Positions 226 through 8,688 of a stretch of 10,537 nt of DNA are shown here, one piece after another; the first letter of the stretch is position 1, and each line of letters begins with the position of its first letter. The notes beneath the pieces were generated by a model. It saw only the letters and a program-made list of their open reading frames with translations. It had not been told where the DNA came from and did no database searches. Source of the DNA: Klenkia sp. (lineage in GTDB: Bacteria > Actinomycetota > Actinomycetes > Mycobacteriales > Geodermatophilaceae); contig JAOPVM010000306.1 in NCBI GenBank assembly GCA_025966215.1, positions 1 to 10,537 on the forward strand. Direction: 5' to 3'. The translations under genes were made by a program, and so were the position numbers.

Positions 226-1707
226 ATGACCACGACCGAATCGACCCCCGACACCGGCACGCTGACCGGCGACGCCCCGGCCCCCACCGGACCCACGTCG
301 ACCATCGACTACTCCGAGCGCATCCCCAACAACGTGAACCTGGCCGGGGACCGCAAGCTGCAGCGCGCCCTGGAGGGCTGGCAGCCCAAGTTCCTGGACT
401 GGTGGGGCACCCTCGGGCCCTCGATCCCCACCCAGGACGTCTACCTGCGCACCGCGATCGCGGTCGGCCGGGACGGCTGGGCGCACTTCGACCGGGTGCC
501 CATGGAGCAGTACCGGTGGGGCATCTTCCTGGCCGAGCAGGACCCCGAGCGGACCATCTCCTTCGGCCAGCACAAGGGCGAGAAGGCCTGGCAGGAGGTG
601 CCCGGGGAGTACCGCTCGGACCTGCGCCGGCTGATCGTCGTGCAGGGCGACACCGAGCCCGCCTCGGTCGAGCAGCAGCGCCACCTGGGCATGACCGCGC
701 CCTCGCTGTACGACATGCGCAACCTGTTCCAGGTCAACGTGGAGGAGGGGCGGCACCTCTGGGCGATGGTCTACCTGCTGCACGCCCACTTCGGGAAGGA
801 CGGCCGCGAGGAGGCCGAGGAGCTGCTCAAGCGCAACTCCGGGGACTACGACTCCCCCCGCATCCTCGGCGCATTCAACGAGGAGACCACCGACTGGCTG
901 CAGTTCTTCATGTTCACCTACTTCACCGACCGGGACGGCAAGTACCAGCTCGGCACGATGAAGGAGTCCGGCTTCGACCCGCTGGCCCGGACCTGCGAGT
1001 TCATGCTCAAGGAGGAGGCCCACCACATGTTCGTGGGCACCACCGGGGTGCAGCGGACCGTGGAGCGCACCGCGGCGCTGATGGCCGAGCACGGCACCGA
1101 CGACCTCTGGCAGCACGGTGCCATCCCGCTGACGGTGATCCAGAAGTACCTGAACTTCCAGTTCTCCGTCTCGATGGACCTCTTCGGCTCCGAGACGTCG
1201 TCCAACGTGGCCGGCTACTACACCGCCGGGCTCAAGGGCCGCTGGATGGAGACCCGTCGCAAGGACGACCACCTGCTGCACGACCTGACCATGGACGTGC
1301 CGGGGATCGAGAACGGCGTGATGGTCACCCGGAACGTCCCGATGCTCACCGCACTGAACCTGGACCTGCGCAACGAGTACACCGCCGACTGCGTCAACGG
1401 CGTCCGGCGCTGGAACCAGGCACTGGAGGACGCCGGTCTGGAGGAGCGGCTCTACCTGCCGCACGACGGCTTCAACCGCCGGGTGGGGGCCTTCTCCGGC
1501 CACCACGTCAGCCCGCAGGGCGAGATCGTCGACGACGCCACGTGGGAGCGCTCGGTCGCTGGCTGGCTGCCGACCGGCGACGACCGCGAGCAGGTCGCGG
1601 CGCTGATGACCCCGCACTACGAGGAGGGCGAGTTCGCCTCCTGGATCGCGCCCCCGTCGGTGGGCATCAACGACATGCCCGTCGAGTACGACTACGTGCG
1701 TTTCTGA
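226..1707 (+). CDS. boxB: benzoyl-CoA 2,3-epoxidase, diiron oxygenase subunit B (BoxB)
   Basis: BoxB is a class-I-like diiron monooxygenase that uses O2 and two electrons to form 2,3-epoxybenzoyl-CoA, the dearomatising step of aerobic benzoate breakdown as a CoA ester. The 493-residue protein is close to the family length (about 475) with a low-complexity Thr/Pro-rich N-terminal extension of about 25 residues before DYSERIPNNVNL. A four-helix-bundle iron site is visible: E144 (GDTEPAS), E174 and H177 (EEGRH), D235 (FTDRDG), and E264 and H267 (EEAHH). Their spacing agrees with the iron ligands I recall for Azoarcus BoxB, shifted by a constant 24 residues, so the enzyme appears intact. The ATG at 226 has AGGAAG at 210-215, about ten bases upstream. 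The stop lies four bases before the ligase gene. The usual reductase partner BoxA is not seen in the window. A reductase and a ferredoxin follow two genes downstream and are candidate partners. Confidence 0.95.
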   Translation: MTTTESTPDTGTLTGDAPAPTGPTSTIDYSERIPNNVNLAGDRKLQRALEGWQPKFLDWWGTLGPSIPTQDVYLRTAIAVGRDGWAHFDRVPMEQYRWGIFLAEQDPERTISFGQHKGEKAWQEVPGEYRSDLRRLIVVQGDTEPASVEQQRHLGMTAPSLYDMRNLFQVNVEEGRHLWAMVYLLHAHFGKDGREEAEELLKRNSGDYDSPRILGAFNEETTDWLQFFMFTYFTDRDGKYQLGTMKESGFDPLARTCEFMLKEEAHHMFVGTTGVQRTVERTAALMAEHGTDDLWQHGAIPLTVIQKYLNFQFSVSMDLFGSETSSNVAGYYTAGLKGRWMETRRKDDHLLHDLTMDVPGIENGVMVTRNVPMLTALNLDLRNEYTADCVNGVRRWNQALEDAGLEERLYLPHDGFNRRVGAFSGHHVSPQGEIVDDATWERSVAGWLPTGDDREQVAALMTPHYEEGEFASWIAPPSVGINDMPVEYDYVRF

Positions 1708-1711
1708 GTCG

Positions 1712-3370
1712 ATGACCACTCTCGACGTCGGCGCCGACGCCGAGGCCGTCACCGGGCCCGCCCCCACCACGGGAGCGGGCCCGGTGGAGGGCCCGGCCCT
1801 GTTCAACGCGGCAGAGTGGCTGGTGACCCGGCACGCCCGGGCCGACGCGGACCGCCTCGCCATCACCGCGATCGACCTGGACGGCAGTGTCCGCACCCTC
1901 AGCTACGGCGACCTCGACGACGCCGTCACCGCCCTGGCCGCGGCCTTCCTCGCCTCCGGGGTCCGGCCGGAGGAACGCCTGCTGCTGTGCATGGGCGACA
2001 CCCCCGAGCTGCTGACCGCGTTCCTGGCCGGTCTGCGCATCGGTGCGGTCCCCGTGCCGGTGTCGACCATGCTCACACCCAAGGACGTCGCCGTGCTCGC
2101 CCGGGACAGCCGGGCCCGGCTGTTCGCGACGAGCTCGGAGTTCGTCGCGCTGGCCCCCGCGGTCGGCGGGCTGCCCGGGCTGGCCGACGTCGTCGTCCTC
2201 ACCGACGGCGACCTGCCCGCGGTCCAGGGCGCCCGGGTGCACCGCTGGGCGGACTTCGTGGCCACCGGCCGGGGCCGGGAGGTCGAGCCCTACCCGACCG
2301 TCGCGGACTCCCCCGCGTTCTGGCTCTACACCTCGGGCACCACCGGCTCGCCCAAGGGCGCCATGCACCGGCACGGCTCGCTGCGCGACACCTACGAGAC
2401 CTACGCCAGCGACGTGCTGGCGATGCAGCCGGAGGACGTCACCTTCTCGGTGGCCAAGTTCTTCTTCGCCTACGGCCTGGGCAACACCCTCACCTTCCCG
2501 TTCGGCGCCGGGGCCAGCACGGTGCTGGACCGCTCCCGCCCCTCCCCCGCCGGGACGCTGCGGGTGCTCACCGAGCAGCGGCCCACGCTGTTCTTCGGGG
2601 GGCCCACCTACTTCGCCGCGCTGATGTCGGCCCAGCTGCCCACCGACGCCTTCGCCTCCGTCCGGGCCTGCGTCTCGGCGGGTGAGGCGTTCCCGGCGGC
2701 GCTGTTCGAGCGGTTCACCGGCCGGTTCGACGTGGAGATGCTCGACGGGATCGGGTCGACGGAGATGCTGCACATCTTCATCAGCAACCGCCCCGGGCGC
2801 TCCCGGGCGGGGTCGACCGGAGAGCTGGTGGCCGGCTACGAGGCGCGGATCGAGGACGACGACGGGCAGCCCGTCCCCGACGGCACCCCCGGCAACCTCT
2901 ACGTGCGCGGGTCCTCGGCCGCCACCGGCTACTGGCAGCGCACCGAGGTCACCCGCCGGGTCTTCCAGGGCCCGTGGGTGCGCACCGGGGACACCTACGT
3001 CCGCGGACCCGACGGGTACTTCTCCTCCCTCGGCCGCACCGACGACATCATCAAGGCCGGTGGCATCTGGGTCTCGCCCACCGAGGTGGAGACCCGGCTG
3101 CGCGAGCACGCCGACGTCACCACCGTGGTCGTGGTGTCCATCCCCGACGCCGACGGGCTGGACAAGCCGGTCGCCTGCGTGGTGCTCGCCCCCACCTCGA
3201 CCACGACGGGTGCCGACCTGGTCGCCTTCTGCCGGGAGGGCCTGGCGGCGTTCAAGCGCCCCCGGCACGTGCTGGTCTTCGACGAGCTGCCGATGACCGC
3301 CACCGGCAAGCTGCAGCGCTTCCGCGTCCGCGAGCTGGCCGTGGCCCGGCTGACCGGGGAGGGCGCGTGA
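1712..3370 (+). CDS. benzoate-CoA ligase
   Basis: This adenylate-forming (ANL) enzyme activates benzoate with ATP and CoA to benzoyl-CoA, the entry step of the pathway. The 552 residues show the full ANL motif series. The phosphate-binding loop YTSGTTGSPKG lies at about 206-216. YGLGNTLTFPFGAG lies at 254-267. DGIGSTEMLHIFISNRPG (345-362) is characteristic of the benzoate/4-hydroxybenzoate-CoA ligase group. The TGD aspartate is D427, the hinge GRTDDIIKAGG is at 441-451, and the catalytic lysine is K533 in TATGKLQR. Compared with relatives there are about 25 extra low-complexity residues at the N-terminus. The ATG at 1712 follows the boxB stop by four bases and has no clear Shine-Dalgarno sequence, which suggests translational coupling to boxB. 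The 3' end overlaps the next gene by four bases. Substrate choice between benzoate and a ring-substituted analogue cannot be settled from sequence, but the boxC/boxB context favours benzoate. bclA and badA are names used for relatives. Confidence 0.92.
   Translation: MTTLDVGADAEAVTGPAPTTGAGPVEGPALFNAAEWLVTRHARADADRLAITAIDLDGSVRTLSYGDLDDAVTALAAAFLASGVRPEERLLLCMGDTPELLTAFLAGLRIGAVPVPVSTMLTPKDVAVLARDSRARLFATSSEFVALAPAVGGLPGLADVVVLTDGDLPAVQGARVHRWADFVATGRGREVEPYPTVADSPAFWLYTSGTTGSPKGAMHRHGSLRDTYETYASDVLAMQPEDVTFSVAKFFFAYGLGNTLTFPFGAGASTVLDRSRPSPAGTLRVLTEQRPTLFFGGPTYFAALMSAQLPTDAFASVRACVSAGEAFPAALFERFTGRFDVEMLDGIGSTEMLHIFISNRPGRSRAGSTGELVAGYEARIEDDDGQPVPDGTPGNLYVRGSSAATGYWQRTEVTRRVFQGPWVRTGDTYVRGPDGYFSSLGRTDDIIKAGGIWVSPTEVETRLREHADVTTVVVVSIPDADGLDKPVACVVLAPTSTTTGADLVAFCREGLAAFKRPRHVLVFDELPMTATGKLQRFRVRELAVARLTGEGA
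3356..3363 (+). promoter_or_regulatory. Shine-Dalgarno sequence for the reductase gene
   Basis: GGGGAGGG lies inside the 3' end of the ligase gene, three to seven bases before the GTG at 3367. It decides the start: the frame stays open upstream to an ATG at 2974, but that region is coded by the ligase in another frame. Only from 3367 does the protein begin with a normal FAD-binding strand and glycine loop. Confidence 0.6.
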
Positions 3371-4371
3371 GGGAGGTCGAGGTCGACCTGCTCGTCGTCG
3401 GCGCCGGGCCGGCGGGGCTCTACGCGGCCTACTACGCCGGGTTCCGCGGGCTGCGCACCGCGATCGTGGACAGCCTCGACGAACCCGGGGGGCAGGTCAC
3501 CGCGCTCTACCCGGAGAAGCAGATCTACGACATCGCCGGCATGCCCGCCGTCCGCGGTCGCGACCTGGTGGCCGGGCTCGTCGCCCAGACCGGGCGCTTC
3601 GACCCGACCTACGTGCTCGGCGAGCGGGCCGAGGAGCTTCAGCGTCGTCCCGACGGGCGGCTGGAGGTCACCACCGACCGGGGCACCCGGATCGACACCG
3701 GGACGATCGTCGTCACCGGCGGGATCGGCACCTTCACCCCCCGCCCGTTGCCGGGCGGGGACGTCTGGGAGGGGCGCGGCCTGCACTACGTGGTGCGTGA
3801 GCTCGCCGCCCACGCCGGCCAGCACGTGGTGATCGTCGGCGGCGGGGACTCCGCCGTCGACTGGGCGCTGGCCCTGCAGCCGCTGGCCGCCTCGGTGACC
3901 GTCGTGCACCGGCGGGCGGCCTTCCGGGCGCACGCGGCCAGCGTGGCCGACATGCACGCCGGGTCGACCGTCGTCCTCACCGACGCCCAGGTGCACGAGC
4001 TCACCGGGGACGACGTCCTGCGCGCCGTGCACGTGCGCGCCAAGGACGGCACGGTCACCGAGCTGCGGGCCGACGTCGTCATCGCCGCACTGGGGTTCAC
4101 CGCCGACATCGGTCCGCTCGAGCGGTGGGGCATCGACGTCGTCGATCGCAAGATCACCGTGGACACCGCCATGCGCACCACCGTCCCCGGGGTCTACGCC
4201 GCCGGGGACATCACCGAGTACCCGGGCAAGGTGCGGTTGATCTCGGTCGGCTTCGGCGAGGCCGCGACCGCCGTCAACAACGCCGCCACGCACCTGTTCC
4301 CCGACCAGCCGCTGTTCCCCGGGCACAGCAGCGACGACCCCGCCGGCCTGCCCACGCCGGTCCCCGCCTGA
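3367..4371 (+). CDS. ferredoxin-NADP+ reductase, thioredoxin-reductase type
   Basis: A 334-residue flavoprotein of the YumC/FNR2 group, which transfers electrons between NADPH and ferredoxin. The N-terminal FAD loop is GAGPAG (12-17) and PGGQV follows at 40-44. The NADP domain has [13 protein letters not shown] at about 155-167 and the basic HRR (181-183) typical of NADPH preference. The second FAD contact is [22 protein letters not shown], split over about 278-299. The redox CxxC of true thioredoxin reductases is absent, and no cysteine is visible in the protein, which fits a ferredoxin reductase. The start GTG at 3367 overlaps the ligase stop (GTGA), so translation is probably coupled. Its position between the ligase and a ferredoxin, in the same operon as boxB, suggests that it feeds BoxB through that ferredoxin. 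That role is inferred. A general cellular reductase captured in the operon is the alternative. Confidence 0.88.
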
Positions 4372-4378
4372 GGAGGAG
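4371..4378 (+). promoter_or_regulatory. strong Shine-Dalgarno sequence for the ferredoxin gene
   Basis: AGGAGGAG overlaps the reductase stop codon and sits nine bases before the GTG at 4388. It is the strongest ribosome-binding site I see in the operon, suggesting that the ferredoxin is made in excess of the enzymes before it. Confidence 0.7.
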
Positions 4379-4387
4379 CCACCCCCC

Positions 4388-4717
4388 GTGCCCTACGTCA
4401 TCGGCAACGAGTGCATCGGCACCACCGACATGTCCTGCGTGGACGAGTGCCCCGTGGACTGCATCTACGAGGGGGACACCAAGCTGTACATCAACCCCAA
4501 GGAGTGCATCGACTGCGGGGCCTGCGAACCGGCCTGCCCGGTCGAGGCCATCGCCCAGGACCGGCGGGTCACCGAGGAGAACGAACCCCACGTCGAGGAC
4601 AACCGACGGTTCTTCCTCGAGCTGCTGCCCGGGCGCGACGCCCCCCTGGGCAACCCGGGCGGGGCGAGCAAGACCGGCCGGATCGGCGTGGACACCGAGC
4701 TCGTCGCCGGTCTCTGA
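4388..4717 (+). CDS. seven-iron ferredoxin ([3Fe-4S][4Fe-4S]), FdxC/FdxA type
   Basis: A 109-residue soluble electron carrier that resembles the mycobacterial seven-iron ferredoxins. Cysteines are at 9, 17, 21, 25, 40, 43, 46 and 50. By the known pattern of this family, C9, C17 and C50 hold the [3Fe-4S] cluster and C21, C40, C43 and C46 the [4Fe-4S] cluster, leaving C25 free. The second half lacks cysteines and ends in the usual extension [15 protein letters not shown] and IGVDTELV, common in actinobacterial members. It is the last gene of the operon, 16 bases after the reductase and directly before a strong hairpin. With that reductase it forms a plausible two-protein replacement for BoxA, passing electrons to the BoxB diiron site. 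The fold is clear. The partner assignment rests on gene order only. Confidence 0.93.
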
Positions 4718-4724
4718 GTCCCAC

Positions 4725-4773
4725 CGCACGCAGAACGGCCCGGCTCCCTCGCGGGGGCCGGGCCGTTCGTGCG
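4725..4773. terminator. GC-rich hairpin terminator shared by convergent genes
   Basis: Bases 4733-4748 pair with 4753-4768 around a TCGC tetraloop, giving 16 bp with one G-T pair (left arm GAACGGCCCGGC TCCC). An outer five-pair stem (CGCAC at 4725-4729 with GTGCG at 4769-4773) extends it across a three-base bulge. It starts eight bases after the ferredoxin stop and ends 17 bases before the stop of the convergent binding-protein gene, so it can serve both strands. There is no T tract on either side, as is common for actinobacterial terminators. Confidence 0.8.
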
Positions 4774-4790
4774 AACAGGTGGTGCTGGGG

Positions 4791-6131
4791 TCAGCGCGCC
4801 GGGCCGATGCCCTGGGCGTTGAGACCCTGGATGATCCGCGAGGACTCCTCGAAGCCGATCACCACGATGGCGTCGGGGTTGAGGTCGACCATCTGCTGCA
4901 CCTCGGAGTCGAAGTTGGCAGCCTGCGGGTCGTAGGTGATCGAGACGACGTCGTCCTCGGACAGGCCGTCGCTGATCAGGTTGTTGCGGGCGTTCTCGGC
5001 CAGGCCGGTGCCGTACGGGTCGTTGATCGCGAGGATCCCGACCGTGTTGTTGCCGTCGGCACCGATCAGGTCGGCCAGCGCGCGGGCCTGCAGCGTGTCC
5101 GCGGGCGCGGTACGGAAGTACAGGCCCGAGTCGTCGTAGGTCGTGAACTGGTCGGAGGTGTTCGCCGGGGAGAACTCCAGGACGCCGGCACCGGTGATGG
5201 TGTCGATGACCGTGAGGCTCACGCCCGAGGAGGCAGCGCCGATGATCGCGTTGACGCCGGACTGCAGGAGGCGGTCGACGGTCTGGGTGGCGGTGTCGGT
5301 CGAGGCGTCACCGGAGTCACCCTCGACGAGCTGGACCGGCTGGCCCAGGACGCCGCCGGCGGCGTTGATGTCGTTGATCGCCAGCTGGACGCCGGCGACC
5401 TCCGGCGGCCCGAGGAAGGCCAGGTTGCCGGTCAGCGGCAGCAGCGTGCCGATGATCAGCGGGTCGCCCGTGGCGCCGGCCGCGGCGTAGGCCGGGCCCT
5501 CGTCGGAGGCGGCGTTGGCCTCGTCGCCCGCGAGGGCGAACTCGGTCAGGCTGTCGTCGATCTGGTTGTCCTCGCCGAACTGCAGCAGCCCGAAGCTGGC
5601 CTCGGCCGGCTCGCCGGCGTCGGCGAAGCTCAGCGGACCGGTGATGCCGTCGTAGTCGACGTTCCCACCGGCAGCGATGATGTCCAGGCAGGACTGGAAG
5701 TCCGAGCAGGCGTCCCCACCGAAGGTGATGCCGTTGACGTACGGCCCGAAGGTCGTGGCCTGGTTGGTGCCGGCAGCCTGCGCGGCCAGCGCGGTGATGA
5801 TCACCGCGTCGTAGGACTCACCCGCGTAGTTGTAGTCCTGCAGGTCGGGGTTGATCTCCAGCAGGCGGTCGGTGAAGTCCCCCGACAGCTCGGTCAGCGG
5901 CGTGGTTCCCCGCATGCCGGCCAGGGCGCCCGGCTCGGAGAAGTCGTTGCCGAGGGCGTTGCCCATGTTGCCGTCGGTGCCGTAGACGTTGACCTGCCGT
6001 GAACCGCTGTCCCCGCCGCCACCGCTGGTGGCCGCGGCGTCGTCGCTGTCGCTGCCGCCGCCACAGGCGGTTGCAGCGAGCAGGACGGCCCCGGACACGG
6101 CGACGGCGCGGGCGAAGGTGCCAGTGCGCAT
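4791..6131 (-). CDS. substrate-binding lipoprotein, branched-chain-amino-acid type, circularly permuted
   Basis: A 446-residue extracytoplasmic solute receptor of the LivJ-like (Peripla_BP_6, type I) family for an ABC importer. Residues 1-23 are a lipoprotein signal: MRTG, a hydrophobic stretch, then the lipobox ending at C23, followed by a Gly/Ser/Asp linker. The domain order is unusual. Residues 46-205 (QVNVYGTDGNMGN ... ITGPLSFADAGEPAEASFG) match the part that normally forms the C-terminal half, including a cysteine pair C142/C148. A low-complexity linker follows at 206-222. Residues 223-446 (DPLIIGTLLPLTG ... VVIGFEESSRIIQGLNAQGIGPAR) match the part that normally begins the mature protein. 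Start 6131 was chosen over 6158 because GGGAG lies seven bases upstream and the signal peptide then begins normally. No permease or ATPase gene is adjacent in the window. The ligand is unknown; an aromatic acid or an amino acid are both possible. Confidence 0.85.
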   Translation of the reverse strand: MRTGTFARAVAVSGAVLLAATACGGGSDSDDAAATSGGGGDSGSRQVNVYGTDGNMGNALGNDFSEPGALAGMRGTTPLTELSGDFTDRLLEINPDLQDYNYAGESYDAVIITALAAQAAGTNQATTFGPYVNGITFGGDACSDFQSCLDIIAAGGNVDYDGITGPLSFADAGEPAEASFGLLQFGEDNQIDDSLTEFALAGDEANAASDEGPAYAAAGATGDPLIIGTLLPLTGNLAFLGPPEVAGVQLAINDINAAGGVLGQPVQLVEGDSGDASTDTATQTVDRLLQSGVNAIIGAASSGVSLTVIDTITGAGVLEFSPANTSDQFTTYDDSGLYFRTAPADTLQARALADLIGADGNNTVGILAINDPYGTGLAENARNNLISDGLSEDDVVSITYDPQAANFDSEVQQMVDLNPDAIVVIGFEESSRIIQGLNAQGIGPAR

Positions 6132-6380: not shown

Positions 6381-6983
6381 TCAGGCGGTGGGGGTCTCCG
6401 CCGGACCGACACCGTCGGTGAGCACCAGCTGCGCCAGCGCCTTCATCGACGTGCGCTCGTTCATCGCCGTCCGCTGGATCCACCGGAACGCCTCGGCCTC
6501 GGTGATCCCGCGGTCGGCCATGAGCTTCCCCTTCGCCTGCTCGACCACCTTGCGGGCCTCCAGACGCTCCTTGAGGTCACCGACCTCGGCATCCAGCGCG
6601 GTCATCTCCACGAACCGGGCCCGGGCCACCTCGATCGCCGGCACCAGGTCCGCCTTCGAGAAGGGCTTCACCAGGTAGGCCATCGCACCGGCGTCCCGGG
6701 CCCGCTCCACCAGCTCGCGCTGGGAGAAGGCGGTCAGCACGATCACCGGGGCGATCCGGGAGGCCGCGATCTGCTCGGCCGCGGACAACCCGTCCAGCAC
6801 CGGCATCTGCACGTCCAGCACGACCAGGTCCGGGCGCAGCTCGCGCGCCAGGTCGACCGCGGCCTGGCCGTCGCCGACCTCGCCGACGACGACGTACCCC
6901 TCCTCCTCCAGCATCTCCTTGAGGTCGAGGCGGATCAGTGCCTCGTCCTCGGCGATGAGGACCCGGGTCGGCTCGTTGCTCAC
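6381..6983 (-). CDS. pdtaR: response regulator with ANTAR RNA-binding domain (PdtaR-like)
   Basis: A 200-residue two-domain regulator. The receiver domain (about 6-120) has the acidic pair E12/D13, phospho-acceptor D57 in VVLDVQMP, switch threonine T84 and conserved K106 in LVKPFSK. A helical linker leads to the ANTAR domain (about 137-189) with LEARKVVEQAKGKLM and EAFRWIQRTAM. ANTAR proteins bind paired RNA hairpins and act as antiterminators or block ribosomes. Length and sequence fit mycobacterial PdtaR (Rv1626, about 205 residues), the partner of sensor kinase PdtaS. No kinase gene is present here, as expected since the two are usually unlinked. The GTG at 6983 is preceded by TAGGGT (minus strand 6995-6990) six bases upstream, which fits a leaderless transcript. 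The AGGG within it could alternatively act as a weak ribosome-binding site. The gene is divergent from the tRNA with 52 bases between them. Confidence 0.93.
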   Translation of the reverse strand: MSNEPTRVLIAEDEALIRLDLKEMLEEEGYVVVGEVGDGQAAVDLARELRPDLVVLDVQMPVLDGLSAAEQIAASRIAPVIVLTAFSQRELVERARDAGAMAYLVKPFSKADLVPAIEVARARFVEMTALDAEVGDLKERLEARKVVEQAKGKLMADRGITEAEAFRWIQRTAMNERTSMKALAQLVLTDGVGPAETPTA

Positions 6984-6989
6984 CGGCTC

Positions 6990-6995
6990 ACCCTA
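6990..6995 (-). promoter_or_regulatory. -10 box for a leaderless pdtaR transcript (candidate)
   Basis: Minus strand TAGGGT matches TAnnnT and ends six bases before the GTG at 6983, so transcription would start at or next to the start codon. This spacing is typical of actinobacterial leaderless genes. I found no convincing -35 box. Confidence 0.4.
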
Positions 6996-7020
6996 GCGAG
7001 GCCGCGGGCCCGGTGCGTCG

Positions 7021-7026
7021 TACGCT
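7021..7026 (+). promoter_or_regulatory. candidate -10 box for the tRNA transcript
   Basis: TACGCT matches TAnnnT and lies ten bases before the first base of the tRNA, placing a transcription start at about 7033. No clear -35 box is seen. It is the only plausible promoter element on this strand in the 52-base divergent gap, so it may also drive the decarboxylase gene directly after the tRNA. Confidence 0.3.
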
Positions 7027-7035
7027 CCATCGAGG

Positions 7036-7109
7036 GCCCCCGTACCCCAACTGGCAGAGGGAGCGGATTCAAAACCCGCACAGTGTCCGTTCGAATCGGA
7101 CCGGGGGCA
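7036..7109 (+). tRNA. tRNA-Leu (anticodon CAA), short variable loop
   Basis: A full cloverleaf can be drawn. The acceptor stem is GCCCCCG (7036-7042) with CGGGGGC (7102-7108) and discriminator A at 7109. The D stem is CCC/GGG (three pairs), and the D loop contains TGGCAGA. The anticodon stem is 7063-7067 with 7075-7079 (A-C mismatch at the closing pair). The loop TTCAAAA gives anticodon CAA at 7070-7072. The T stem GTCCG/CGGAC encloses TTCGAAT. CCA is not encoded. Leucine identity is supported by the anticodon, the A discriminator and the three-pair D stem. Against a canonical tRNA-Leu, the variable region is only five bases (7080-7084), so the long arm of class II tRNAs is missing. I have a vague memory of similar short CAA tRNAs annotated as Leu in Actinobacteria but cannot confirm it. 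Confidence 0.88.
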
Positions 7110-7110
7110 C

Positions 7111-8688
7111 GTGACCGGCCACATGACTCCTGAGCAGTTCCGCCAGCACGGGCACGAGGTCGTGGACTGGGTGGCCGACCACATGGGGCGGGTGGAGTCG
7201 CTGCCGGTGCGGTCCCGGGTCTCCCCCGGCGACGTGCGGGCGCAGCTGCCCGCGCACCCCCCCGAGCAGGGCGAGTCGATGGCCGACGTGCTGGCCGACC
7301 TGGAGCGGGTCGTCGTCCCGGGCCTGACGCACTGGCAGCACCCCGGCTTCTTCGGCTACTTCCCGGCCAACACCTCCGGGCCCTCCGTGCTCGGTGACCT
7401 GGTCAGCTCCGCCCTCGGCGTGCAGGGCATGTCCTGGGTGACCAGCCCGGCCTGCACCGAGCTCGAACAGCACGTCATGGACTGGTTCGTCGAGCTGCTC
7501 GGCCTGCCCGGGTCCTTCACCCACGCCAGCACCGGCGGCGGGGTGGTCCAGGACTCCAGCTCCGGGGCCAACCTGGTGGCACTCCTGGCCGCCCTGCACC
7601 GGGCCACCGGCGGCGCCACCGTGCGCGGCGGCGTCCGCCCGGAGGACATGACCGTCTACGTGTCGGCCCAGACGCACTCCTCGATGGAGAAGGCCGCCCG
7701 GATCGCCGGCCTGGGCACCGACGCCGTCCGCGTCGTGGAGGTCGACGGCGACCTGGCGATGCGTCCGCAGGCACTGGCCGCCCGGATCGACCGCGACATG
7801 GCCCGCGGGTTCACCCCCGTGCTGGTCTGCGCCACGGTGGGGACGACGTCGACCGGTGCGTTCGACCCGCTGGAGGCCCTCGGCCCGGTCTGCCGGGACC
7901 GCGGCGTGTGGCTGCACGTCGACGCCGCCTGGGCCGGGGTGGCCGCCGTCGCCCCCGAGCTGCGGCACCTGCAGGCCGGGGTCGAGTGGGCCGACAGCTA
8001 CACCACCGACGCACACAAGTGGCTGCTCACTGGCTTCGACGCCACGTTGTTCTTCACCGCCGACCGGGCCGCACTCACCGGGGCCCTGGCGATCCTCCCG
8101 GAGTACCTGCGCAACGCCGCCACCGACAGCGGCTCGGTGGTGGACTACCGCGACTGGCAGATCGAGCTCGGCCGTCGCTTCCGGGCGCTCAAGCTCTGGT
8201 TCGTCGTCCGCTGGTACGGCGCCGAGGGGCTGCGCGAGCACGTGCGCGCGCACGTGGCGCTGGCCCAGGAGCTGGCCGGCTGGGCCCGCGCCGACGACCG
8301 GTTCTCCGTCGTCGCCCCGCACCCGCTGTCGCTGGTCTGCCTCAAGCCGCGCTGGCCGCACGGGGTGGACGGCGACGTCGCCACCATGACCCTGCTCGAG
8401 CGCCTCGCCGACGGCGGTGAGGTGTTCCTGACCCACACGACCGTCTCCGGCGAGGTGGTGCTCCGGGTGTCCATCGGGTCCCCGGCCACCGAGCGACGGC
8501 ACGTGGAGCGGCTGTGGGCGCTGCTGGGTGAGCACCACGACTGGCTGGCCAACGACTTCGCTGAGCAGCAGCGCGCGCAGACCGAGCGGGAACGCGCCGA
8601 CCGGGAGGCAGCCGAGCAGGCCGCAGCGGCGCCCCAGCCGGTGGAGCACCAGACCGTCGCCGAGGTGGATCGGGCCTCAGCCGAGTGA
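7111..8688 (+). CDS. PLP-dependent aromatic-L-amino-acid decarboxylase family protein
   Basis: A 525-residue fold-type I group II decarboxylase. It removes CO2 from an amino acid, probably aromatic (Tyr, Phe, Trp or Dopa), to give the amine. Visible elements are HPGFFGYFPANTS (77-89), SPACTELE (112-119), GGGVVQDSSSG (142-152), the ring-stacking histidine H189 in QTHSS, the PLP pyridine-binding D271 in HVDAAWAG, and the Schiff-base lysine K303 in TTDAHKWL. The C-terminal domain closes with LRVSIGSP (451-458), followed by a charged Glu/Arg/Ala tail of about 40 residues, probably helical. The start is ambiguous: GTG 7111 lies one base after the tRNA, and ATG 7123 gives the common N-terminus MTPEQF. 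Neither has a good ribosome-binding site. The 3' end overlaps tesB by 12 bp. Exact substrate is not predictable; a glutamate or diaminobutyrate decarboxylase is less likely. Confidence 0.88.
   Translation: MTGHMTPEQFRQHGHEVVDWVADHMGRVESLPVRSRVSPGDVRAQLPAHPPEQGESMADVLADLERVVVPGLTHWQHPGFFGYFPANTSGPSVLGDLVSSALGVQGMSWVTSPACTELEQHVMDWFVELLGLPGSFTHASTGGGVVQDSSSGANLVALLAALHRATGGATVRGGVRPEDMTVYVSAQTHSSMEKAARIAGLGTDAVRVVEVDGDLAMRPQALAARIDRDMARGFTPVLVCATVGTTSTGAFDPLEALGPVCRDRGVWLHVDAAWAGVAAVAPELRHLQAGVEWADSYTTDAHKWLLTGFDATLFFTADRAALTGALAILPEYLRNAATDSGSVVDYRDWQIELGRRFRALKLWFVVRWYGAEGLREHVRAHVALAQELAGWARADDRFSVVAPHPLSLVCLKPRWPHGVDGDVATMTLLERLADGGEVFLTHTTVSGEVVLRVSIGSPATERRHVERLWALLGEHHDWLANDFAEQQRAQTERERADREAAEQAAAAPQPVEHQTVAEVDRASAE

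Follow-up and report, generated by a model that had tools for sequence, protein, structure and literature searches.

Taken as a whole, the evidence makes it very likely that a gene of a Klenkia (Geodermatophilaceae) contig encodes a circularly permuted LivJ-type lipoprotein of a LIV importer, that its form of the permutation (type A) arose once, that a second form (type B) arose separately, and that duplication is the likeliest route. The window, the whole stretch of 10,537 nucleotides analysed, carries the gene on the minus strand (4791..6131, stop included), and the open frame runs uninterrupted from an ATG at 6131 to a stop codon at 4791–4793, giving 446 amino acids; the assignment is supported by this frame and by full-length conserved relatives. 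Judged by its sequence, the product would serve a LIV-type (amino acid/amide) ABC importer as a lipid-anchored binding protein permuted from an ordinary LivJ-type protein.

The protein contains four parts, all encoded on the minus strand. Residues 1–45 (5997..6131) form a lipoprotein signal peptide and a short linker; the lipobox motif, judged by eye, places the lipid-bearing cysteine at C23, and both M1-R2-T3 and C23 are invariant among ten aligned relatives. Residues 46–205 (5517..5996) correspond to the former C-terminal segment, which now comes first and matches the part that would follow residue 446 in relatives of ordinary order. The former C- and N-termini are bridged by residues 206–222 (5466..5516), and the former N-terminal segment, residues 223–446 (4794..5465), now comes last and ends in GIGPAR. 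The bridge had been called low-complexity from the sequence alone, a description that needs a small correction: it is conserved among the ten aligned relatives, and residues 201–220 are predicted to be ordered (pLDDT 94–96). A strong hairpin is located 3′ of the stop codon, between converging genes (4720..4790, minus strand), with a folding energy of −52.4 kcal/mol and a z-score of −6.1. The terminator proposed at this place is therefore present as a hairpin, but not at the suggested 17 bases, because the inner stem (4768–4733) lies 22 bases past the stop, and a T run is lacking.

The order of the two halves is reversed with respect to the profiles. Peripla_BP_6 of Pfam matches residues 227–443 on profile positions 4–216 of 343 (3.2e-35; 122.8 bits, cut-off 31.7), and the front segment 46–205, searched alone, matches ANF_receptor positions 267–350 of 353 (3.2e-5) with 23.6 bits, slightly below the curated cut-off of 25.4. 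The start of Peripla_BP_6 at the back of the chain, together with the end of ANF_receptor at its front, indicates that the chain order is reversed. The canonical N-to-C order of the Peripla_BP_6 fold is thus not kept, and the Klenkia protein is a permuted descendant rather than an ordinary LivJ-type member. When each half was compared with the fetched loci by tblastn, both halves were found in one frame at 115 of 122 loci, 92 of them permuted and 23 ordinary, and the other seven gave no same-frame pair; there is some redundancy in the 122 loci, since a number of genomes occur twice. The ordinary loci include Pseudonocardia, Mycolicibacterium, Rhodococcus, Millisia, Hoyosella and Lolliginicoccus, as well as Gordonia, Acidimicrobiales and Egibacteraceae metagenome assemblies.

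These ordinary relatives also decide against a distinct family in which the swapped order is primary and the front half has come to resemble LivJ C-termini by convergence. Such a reading, to which we give almost no credence, could draw on the weak match of the front half to general Pfam models; however, the 23 relatives share 56–63% identity with the former N-terminal half and 36–59% with the former C-terminal half, the latter over most of the segment, and the five that were scanned (four of the 23 and L220) match Peripla_BP_6/ANF_receptor along most of the chain and in the usual order. The distinct-family reading is refuted by both observations. The permuted LivJ-type protein is further supported by its ends, which are complementary: in the ordinary relatives the two segments adjoin where the Klenkia protein has its new ends, as in L108, in which the match of residues 224–446 stops at base 7669 and that of residues 46–196 begins at 7667. 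Aligned pairwise with the nearest ordinary relative, the start of the front and the end of the back lie no more than two residues apart in 96 of 125 permuted frames. The other 29 exceed two residues; in some of them the segments seem to overlap, by as many as 38 residues, and we attribute this to linkers rich in Gly/Ser/Thr that align by chance. The swapped halves and fitting ends described by the sequence-only reading are hence borne out, and its rejection of a truncation agrees with the intact 446-codon frame and the full-length relatives of the same order.

AlphaFold2 models the 446-residue protein as a single compact chain with one confident fold (pLDDT 91.8, pTM 0.87), which supports the view that the permuted chain would fold as one compact protein. 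The input comprised 146 rows, with 26 full-length permuted relatives and 60 ordinary relatives each entered as two half fragments; because the ordinary relatives were given as separate halves, the packing between the halves rests on the 26 permuted rows. Confidence was low (pLDDT 52) in an earlier model built from ten close relatives. The VIA rows cover residues 221–446 or nearly so, one of them from residue 119, and the lack of a match for the front half is not readable from them. The confident single-chain prediction and the ordinary relatives at the same locus together support the proposed circular permutant with a retained signal peptide and a new linker.

The permutation is old and family-wide, and is not private to the Klenkia window. 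Among 298 genomes of the order searched, a full-length permuted match, counted by result rows, occurs in 46 of the 51 genomes of the window's family, one-contig genomes included, and the remaining five have no match at a threshold of 1e-20; the orthologues sharing the swapped order that the sequence-only reading proposed to look for are therefore found throughout the family. Two of the 46 (G124 and G268) carry an additional distant ordinary paralogue of 46% and 42% identity. Full-length permuted matches of 39–48% identity also occur in a second family, f16, in 99 of 150 genomes, 13 of which show an additional separate N-half match (57–61%), with the ordinary order confirmed in one, G250. This genome holds an ordinary gene with its transporter plus an orphan A-type permutant (L272, L273). 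In G085 (L166/L098), the break is identical to the window's. A search of a viral library added nothing. An assembly artefact or a recent private rearrangement is conceivable for a draft genome such as the window's (475 contigs, 73% complete), yet the order is repeated in many genomes, among them the one-contig genome G006 (99% identical); the chance of such an origin is negligible. Artefact, truncation and private rearrangement are all ruled out by the relatives in other genomes.

Additional permuted paralogues were observed in the genus. Several Klenkia genomes contain a second, orphan permuted paralogue (L026, L030, L034 and L035), with no LivFGMH match within roughly 6 kb on either side. 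In the window's own genome, contig C279 bears a short stretch that ends in GLGPQR (L041, ~4700–5044), either what is left of the 3′ part of a permuted paralogue or a diverged piece of one, and no front half for it was found on that contig.

A second break, type B, is located about 20 residues further on and occurs in Acidimicrobiia-like lineages. Full-length or nearly full-length permuted matches were found in eight of 396 genomes of the phylum (the window's own, G050, G648, G399, G609, G489, G551 and G591); a search of 36 genomes returned two of these phylum permutants again, and a search of 148 genomes added G821, G735, G736 and G741. Type B is represented by ten of those genomes, all except the window's own and G050, and by the frame-broken L099. 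The latter (6800–8180), from an Acidimicrobiales metagenome assembly, is a B-type permutant in which two frameshifts seem to compensate each other, due to sequencing error or decay. Over L001–L238, 114 frames are A-type, 11 are B-type and 107 are ordinary, two of the ordinary ones being too short for use. The B-type fronts begin about 20 residues later, with LEGMKGTTPL or similar, and the C-terminal piece reads ...YGTDGNMGNALGENFDAGK or similar. In profile coordinates, which are cleaner than the pairwise break table, the printed A-type rows have fronts from position 2–3 of the C-profile and backs to position 220–224 of the N-profile, whereas the B-type fronts start at C-profile 13–22 and the rest, to positions 19–20, is found at the very end of the chain.

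The linkers also differ between the types. The motif AG[DN]E is present in 84 of 114 A-type linkers (including L166 and five of six f16 representatives) and in none of 105 ordinary tails, and RxG[DN]G in all eight members of the main B group (B1), neither of the two B2 proteins (L137 and L138) and two of 105 ordinary N-terminal stretches, both motifs having been picked after the linkers were inspected.

The A-type gene and its ordinary orthologues share one locus. The gene follows pdtaR on the same strand at all 57 permuted loci (L043–L098 and L100) and at 18 of 22 ordinary loci (L101–L122), and it converges on livF at 54 and 21 of these, respectively; the three permuted exceptions (L052, L066 and L067) have little sequence past the gene. 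Behind livF, livG, livM and livH are found in most of the displayed loci. That permuted and ordinary orthologues both occupy the position between pdtaR and a facing livFGMH indicates that one gene was permuted in place. The same locus is shown for the A-type only, because pdtaR is upstream at none of 11 B-type loci, of which eight converge on livF (L264 is too short), and because at the two B2 loci, L255 and L256, the gene diverges from livH, so that the gene order changed along with the protein order. Near the f16 copies L265, L266 and L272, no transporter was detected.

In the window, the upstream locus marker is a conserved same-strand neighbour encoding a response regulator (6381..6983, minus strand), which we take to be pdtaR-like. 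LIV-type permeases and ATPases are available as partners, since relatives have livFGMH at the same locus and, in G006 (L270), some 9 kb separate it from the gene. Between the binding-protein gene and livFGMH, box-like genes intervene in the window's species; in the window they occupy 226..4717 on the plus strand, in the layout of the near-identical complete genome G006, and presumably encode a boxB-like protein, a CoA ligase, an NAD(P)/FAD oxidoreductase and a ferredoxin, a set of the aerobic benzoate type. Within the flanking sequence examined, none of the 57 named A-type loci gave a boxB match. Geodermatophilaceae loci have a pyridoxal-dependent decarboxylase gene flanked by pdtaR and a thioesterase-like gene (7111–8688 in the window), and none was detected in the ordinary-order loci L101–L122. 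In two LivH permeases of this locus (L044, 12175–13575, and L105, 10969–12249, both on the minus strand), BPD_transp_2 is preceded by a CarboxypepD_reg (prealbumin-like) domain at the N-terminus. Such a LivH stands beside permuted and ordinary binding proteins alike, and tblastn finds similar N-terminal stretches at many other loci.

The number of permutation events was addressed with proteins rearranged into a common order, 68 of which form the main tree. Here, the A-type proteins of Geodermatophilaceae and L166 form a clade (98/96), which groups with the f16 copies and with ordinary orthologues of Pseudonocardiaceae/Corynebacteriales type (100/99); without constraint, the f16 copies are placed beside the ordinary orthologues (93/71). 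The eight B1 proteins form a clade of their own (97/96), and B2 is joined with the ordinary L220, L221, L224 and L226 (100/99). Of 110 representatives chosen, 109 entered a quick tree, in which the very long L221b1 broke up the A-type; L221b1 and many others were left out of the 68-row tree. L210 and L230b1 were dropped as short, L099, whose frame is broken twice, was kept out of the binding-protein trees, and L098 was left out of the transporter tree for missing data.

Under a single ancestral permutation, the break would have shifted later, and the ordinary relatives would have regained their order or exchanged it by transfer. Some results are compatible with it: forcing the A-type together is not rejected by the joint tree (lnL 2.9 higher, p 0.55), neither half, tested by itself, rejects a single clade (all B, p 0.27 and 0.14; A+B, p 0.056 and 0.14), and in the LivFGMH tree the two B groups are not set apart from each other (p 0.42). 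However, the joint tree rejects one clade of A and B (lnL 107.9 lower, p 0.0011) and, more weakly, a clade of all B (lnL 56.9 lower, p 0.020), the breaks and linkers differ between the types, and ordinary orthologues form the sister group of the A-type in both the binding-protein and the transporter tree, six A-type and ten ordinary loci being grouped in the latter (100/100). A single origin is accordingly improbable in our view. The joint tree argues firmly for at least two permutation events. A third is probable from the joint tree and the linkers, on which it rests because the half tests and the transporter tree are not significant. The A-type would most likely stem from one event in an ancestor common to the Geodermatophilaceae, the L166/L098 lineage and the orphan f16 lineage, and the B-type, with its separate break about 20 residues downstream, from at least one origin and probably two in Acidimicrobiia-like lineages.

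Circular permutants usually arise by duplication or by fission/fusion (PMC3320104). The second route, given there as a recognised one, would correspond to a chimera in which halves of two different binding-protein genes were fused in reverse order. We find this quite improbable, as the ends fit closely, the gene occupies the orthologous locus, and both A-type halves are placed with the same ordinary orthologues when a tree is built for each half (support 96 for the N half and 61 for the C half); the agreement of the half trees argues against a chimera, although the C-half support of 61 still leaves it a little room. Duplication of a single gene is favoured instead: the likeliest course would be that the gene was duplicated in tandem, that the copies were fused in frame and that both ends were then trimmed while the signal peptide was kept. 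The tandem duplication with loss of the outer halves suggested by the sequence-only reading is plausible. Doubled-segment intermediates were sought in 232 frames and none was seen; above 5 bits, the C profile gave only short tails of ten B-type proteins, and the N profile gave one weak second match, in L232 (15.5 bits). Two ordinary-order paralogues, one of them very diverged, are arranged in tandem in different frames in L221 and L222 (G818 and G752). Such tandem ordinary pairs are the substrate needed for permutation by duplication.

In the proposed mechanism, the ligand would be bound in the cleft and passed to LivHMGF, as by an ordinary LivJ. The new linker would join the old ends, and the lipid anchor would enter at lobe II instead of lobe I, a lobe assignment that we assume from LivJ topology. 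A wider interpretation, which we offer as speculative and judge unlikely, is that the LivJ-type protein of one conserved actinobacterial LIV transporter is a permutation hotspot, with at least three independent events in two neighbouring loops, kept because the shift of the anchor from lobe I to lobe II alters how the receptor meets a permease with an unusual outward CarboxypepD_reg domain. Because permuted proteins exist alongside ordinary orthologues that are as much as about 60% identical to them, for the A-type at the same locus and with the same transporter, the effects of permutation can be tested directly; folding, ligand affinity, domain closure and docking are all accessible on permuted/ordinary pairs. 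These proteins are a natural experiment in which a chain was rewired, by prediction without losing its shape, through a swap that is old and seemingly repeated in related bacteria. They are also a warning, as the best family profile covers half of such a permuted protein.

The closest known proteins are the LivJ-type binding proteins themselves (Peripla_BP_6, amino acid/amide type I; PDB codes: 3ipc, 4gnr and 4n0q), which are homologous to both halves and are likewise accompanied by LIV-type importer genes. Compared with them, the Klenkia protein has swapped halves, new ends at canonical residue ~220 and a new linker between the old ends. Laboratory-made rewired pieces of the type I fold have been crystallised, unlike which the Klenkia permutant is natural. 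In the open-licence PMC literature, no permuted LivJ-type protein was found among the matches listed. The sequence-only reading, which knew of no described natural permutant in this receptor family, agrees with these matches as far as the LivJ type is concerned, but not for type I binding proteins as a whole, because one report (PMC4990184) describes the sugar-binding TpMglB-2 (Tp0684) of Treponema pallidum as a natural, membrane-tethered circular permutant. According to that report, the permutation was revealed by the crystal structure, glucose binding and an accompanying shape change were measured, the moved part is 13% identical to MglB with an unclear donor, and the authors proposed a class 'Type Ic / Cluster Bc' and guessed at an advantage of tethering (PMC4990184). 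The Klenkia protein resembles TpMglB-2, as there described, in being a circularly permuted type I binding protein, by sequence and, for the fold, by prediction. TpMglB-2 belongs to the sugar (MglB) family, and its first three N-lobe strands are moved to the C-terminus with the order of the C lobe untouched; in contrast, 224 residues are moved in the Klenkia protein, the break is at canonical ~220, and the strand arrangement that defines 'Type Ic' in that report is not shared. The re-sited membrane anchor as a selected trait, no more than a suggestion for TpMglB-2, becomes testable here. That type I binding proteins can be permuted in nature was already known; what is new is the recurrence and the orthology in place, since the two parts of the Klenkia protein, in contrast to the moved part of TpMglB-2 as reported, share as much as 63% and 59% identity with ordinary orthologues at the same locus, and the permutation seems recurrent.
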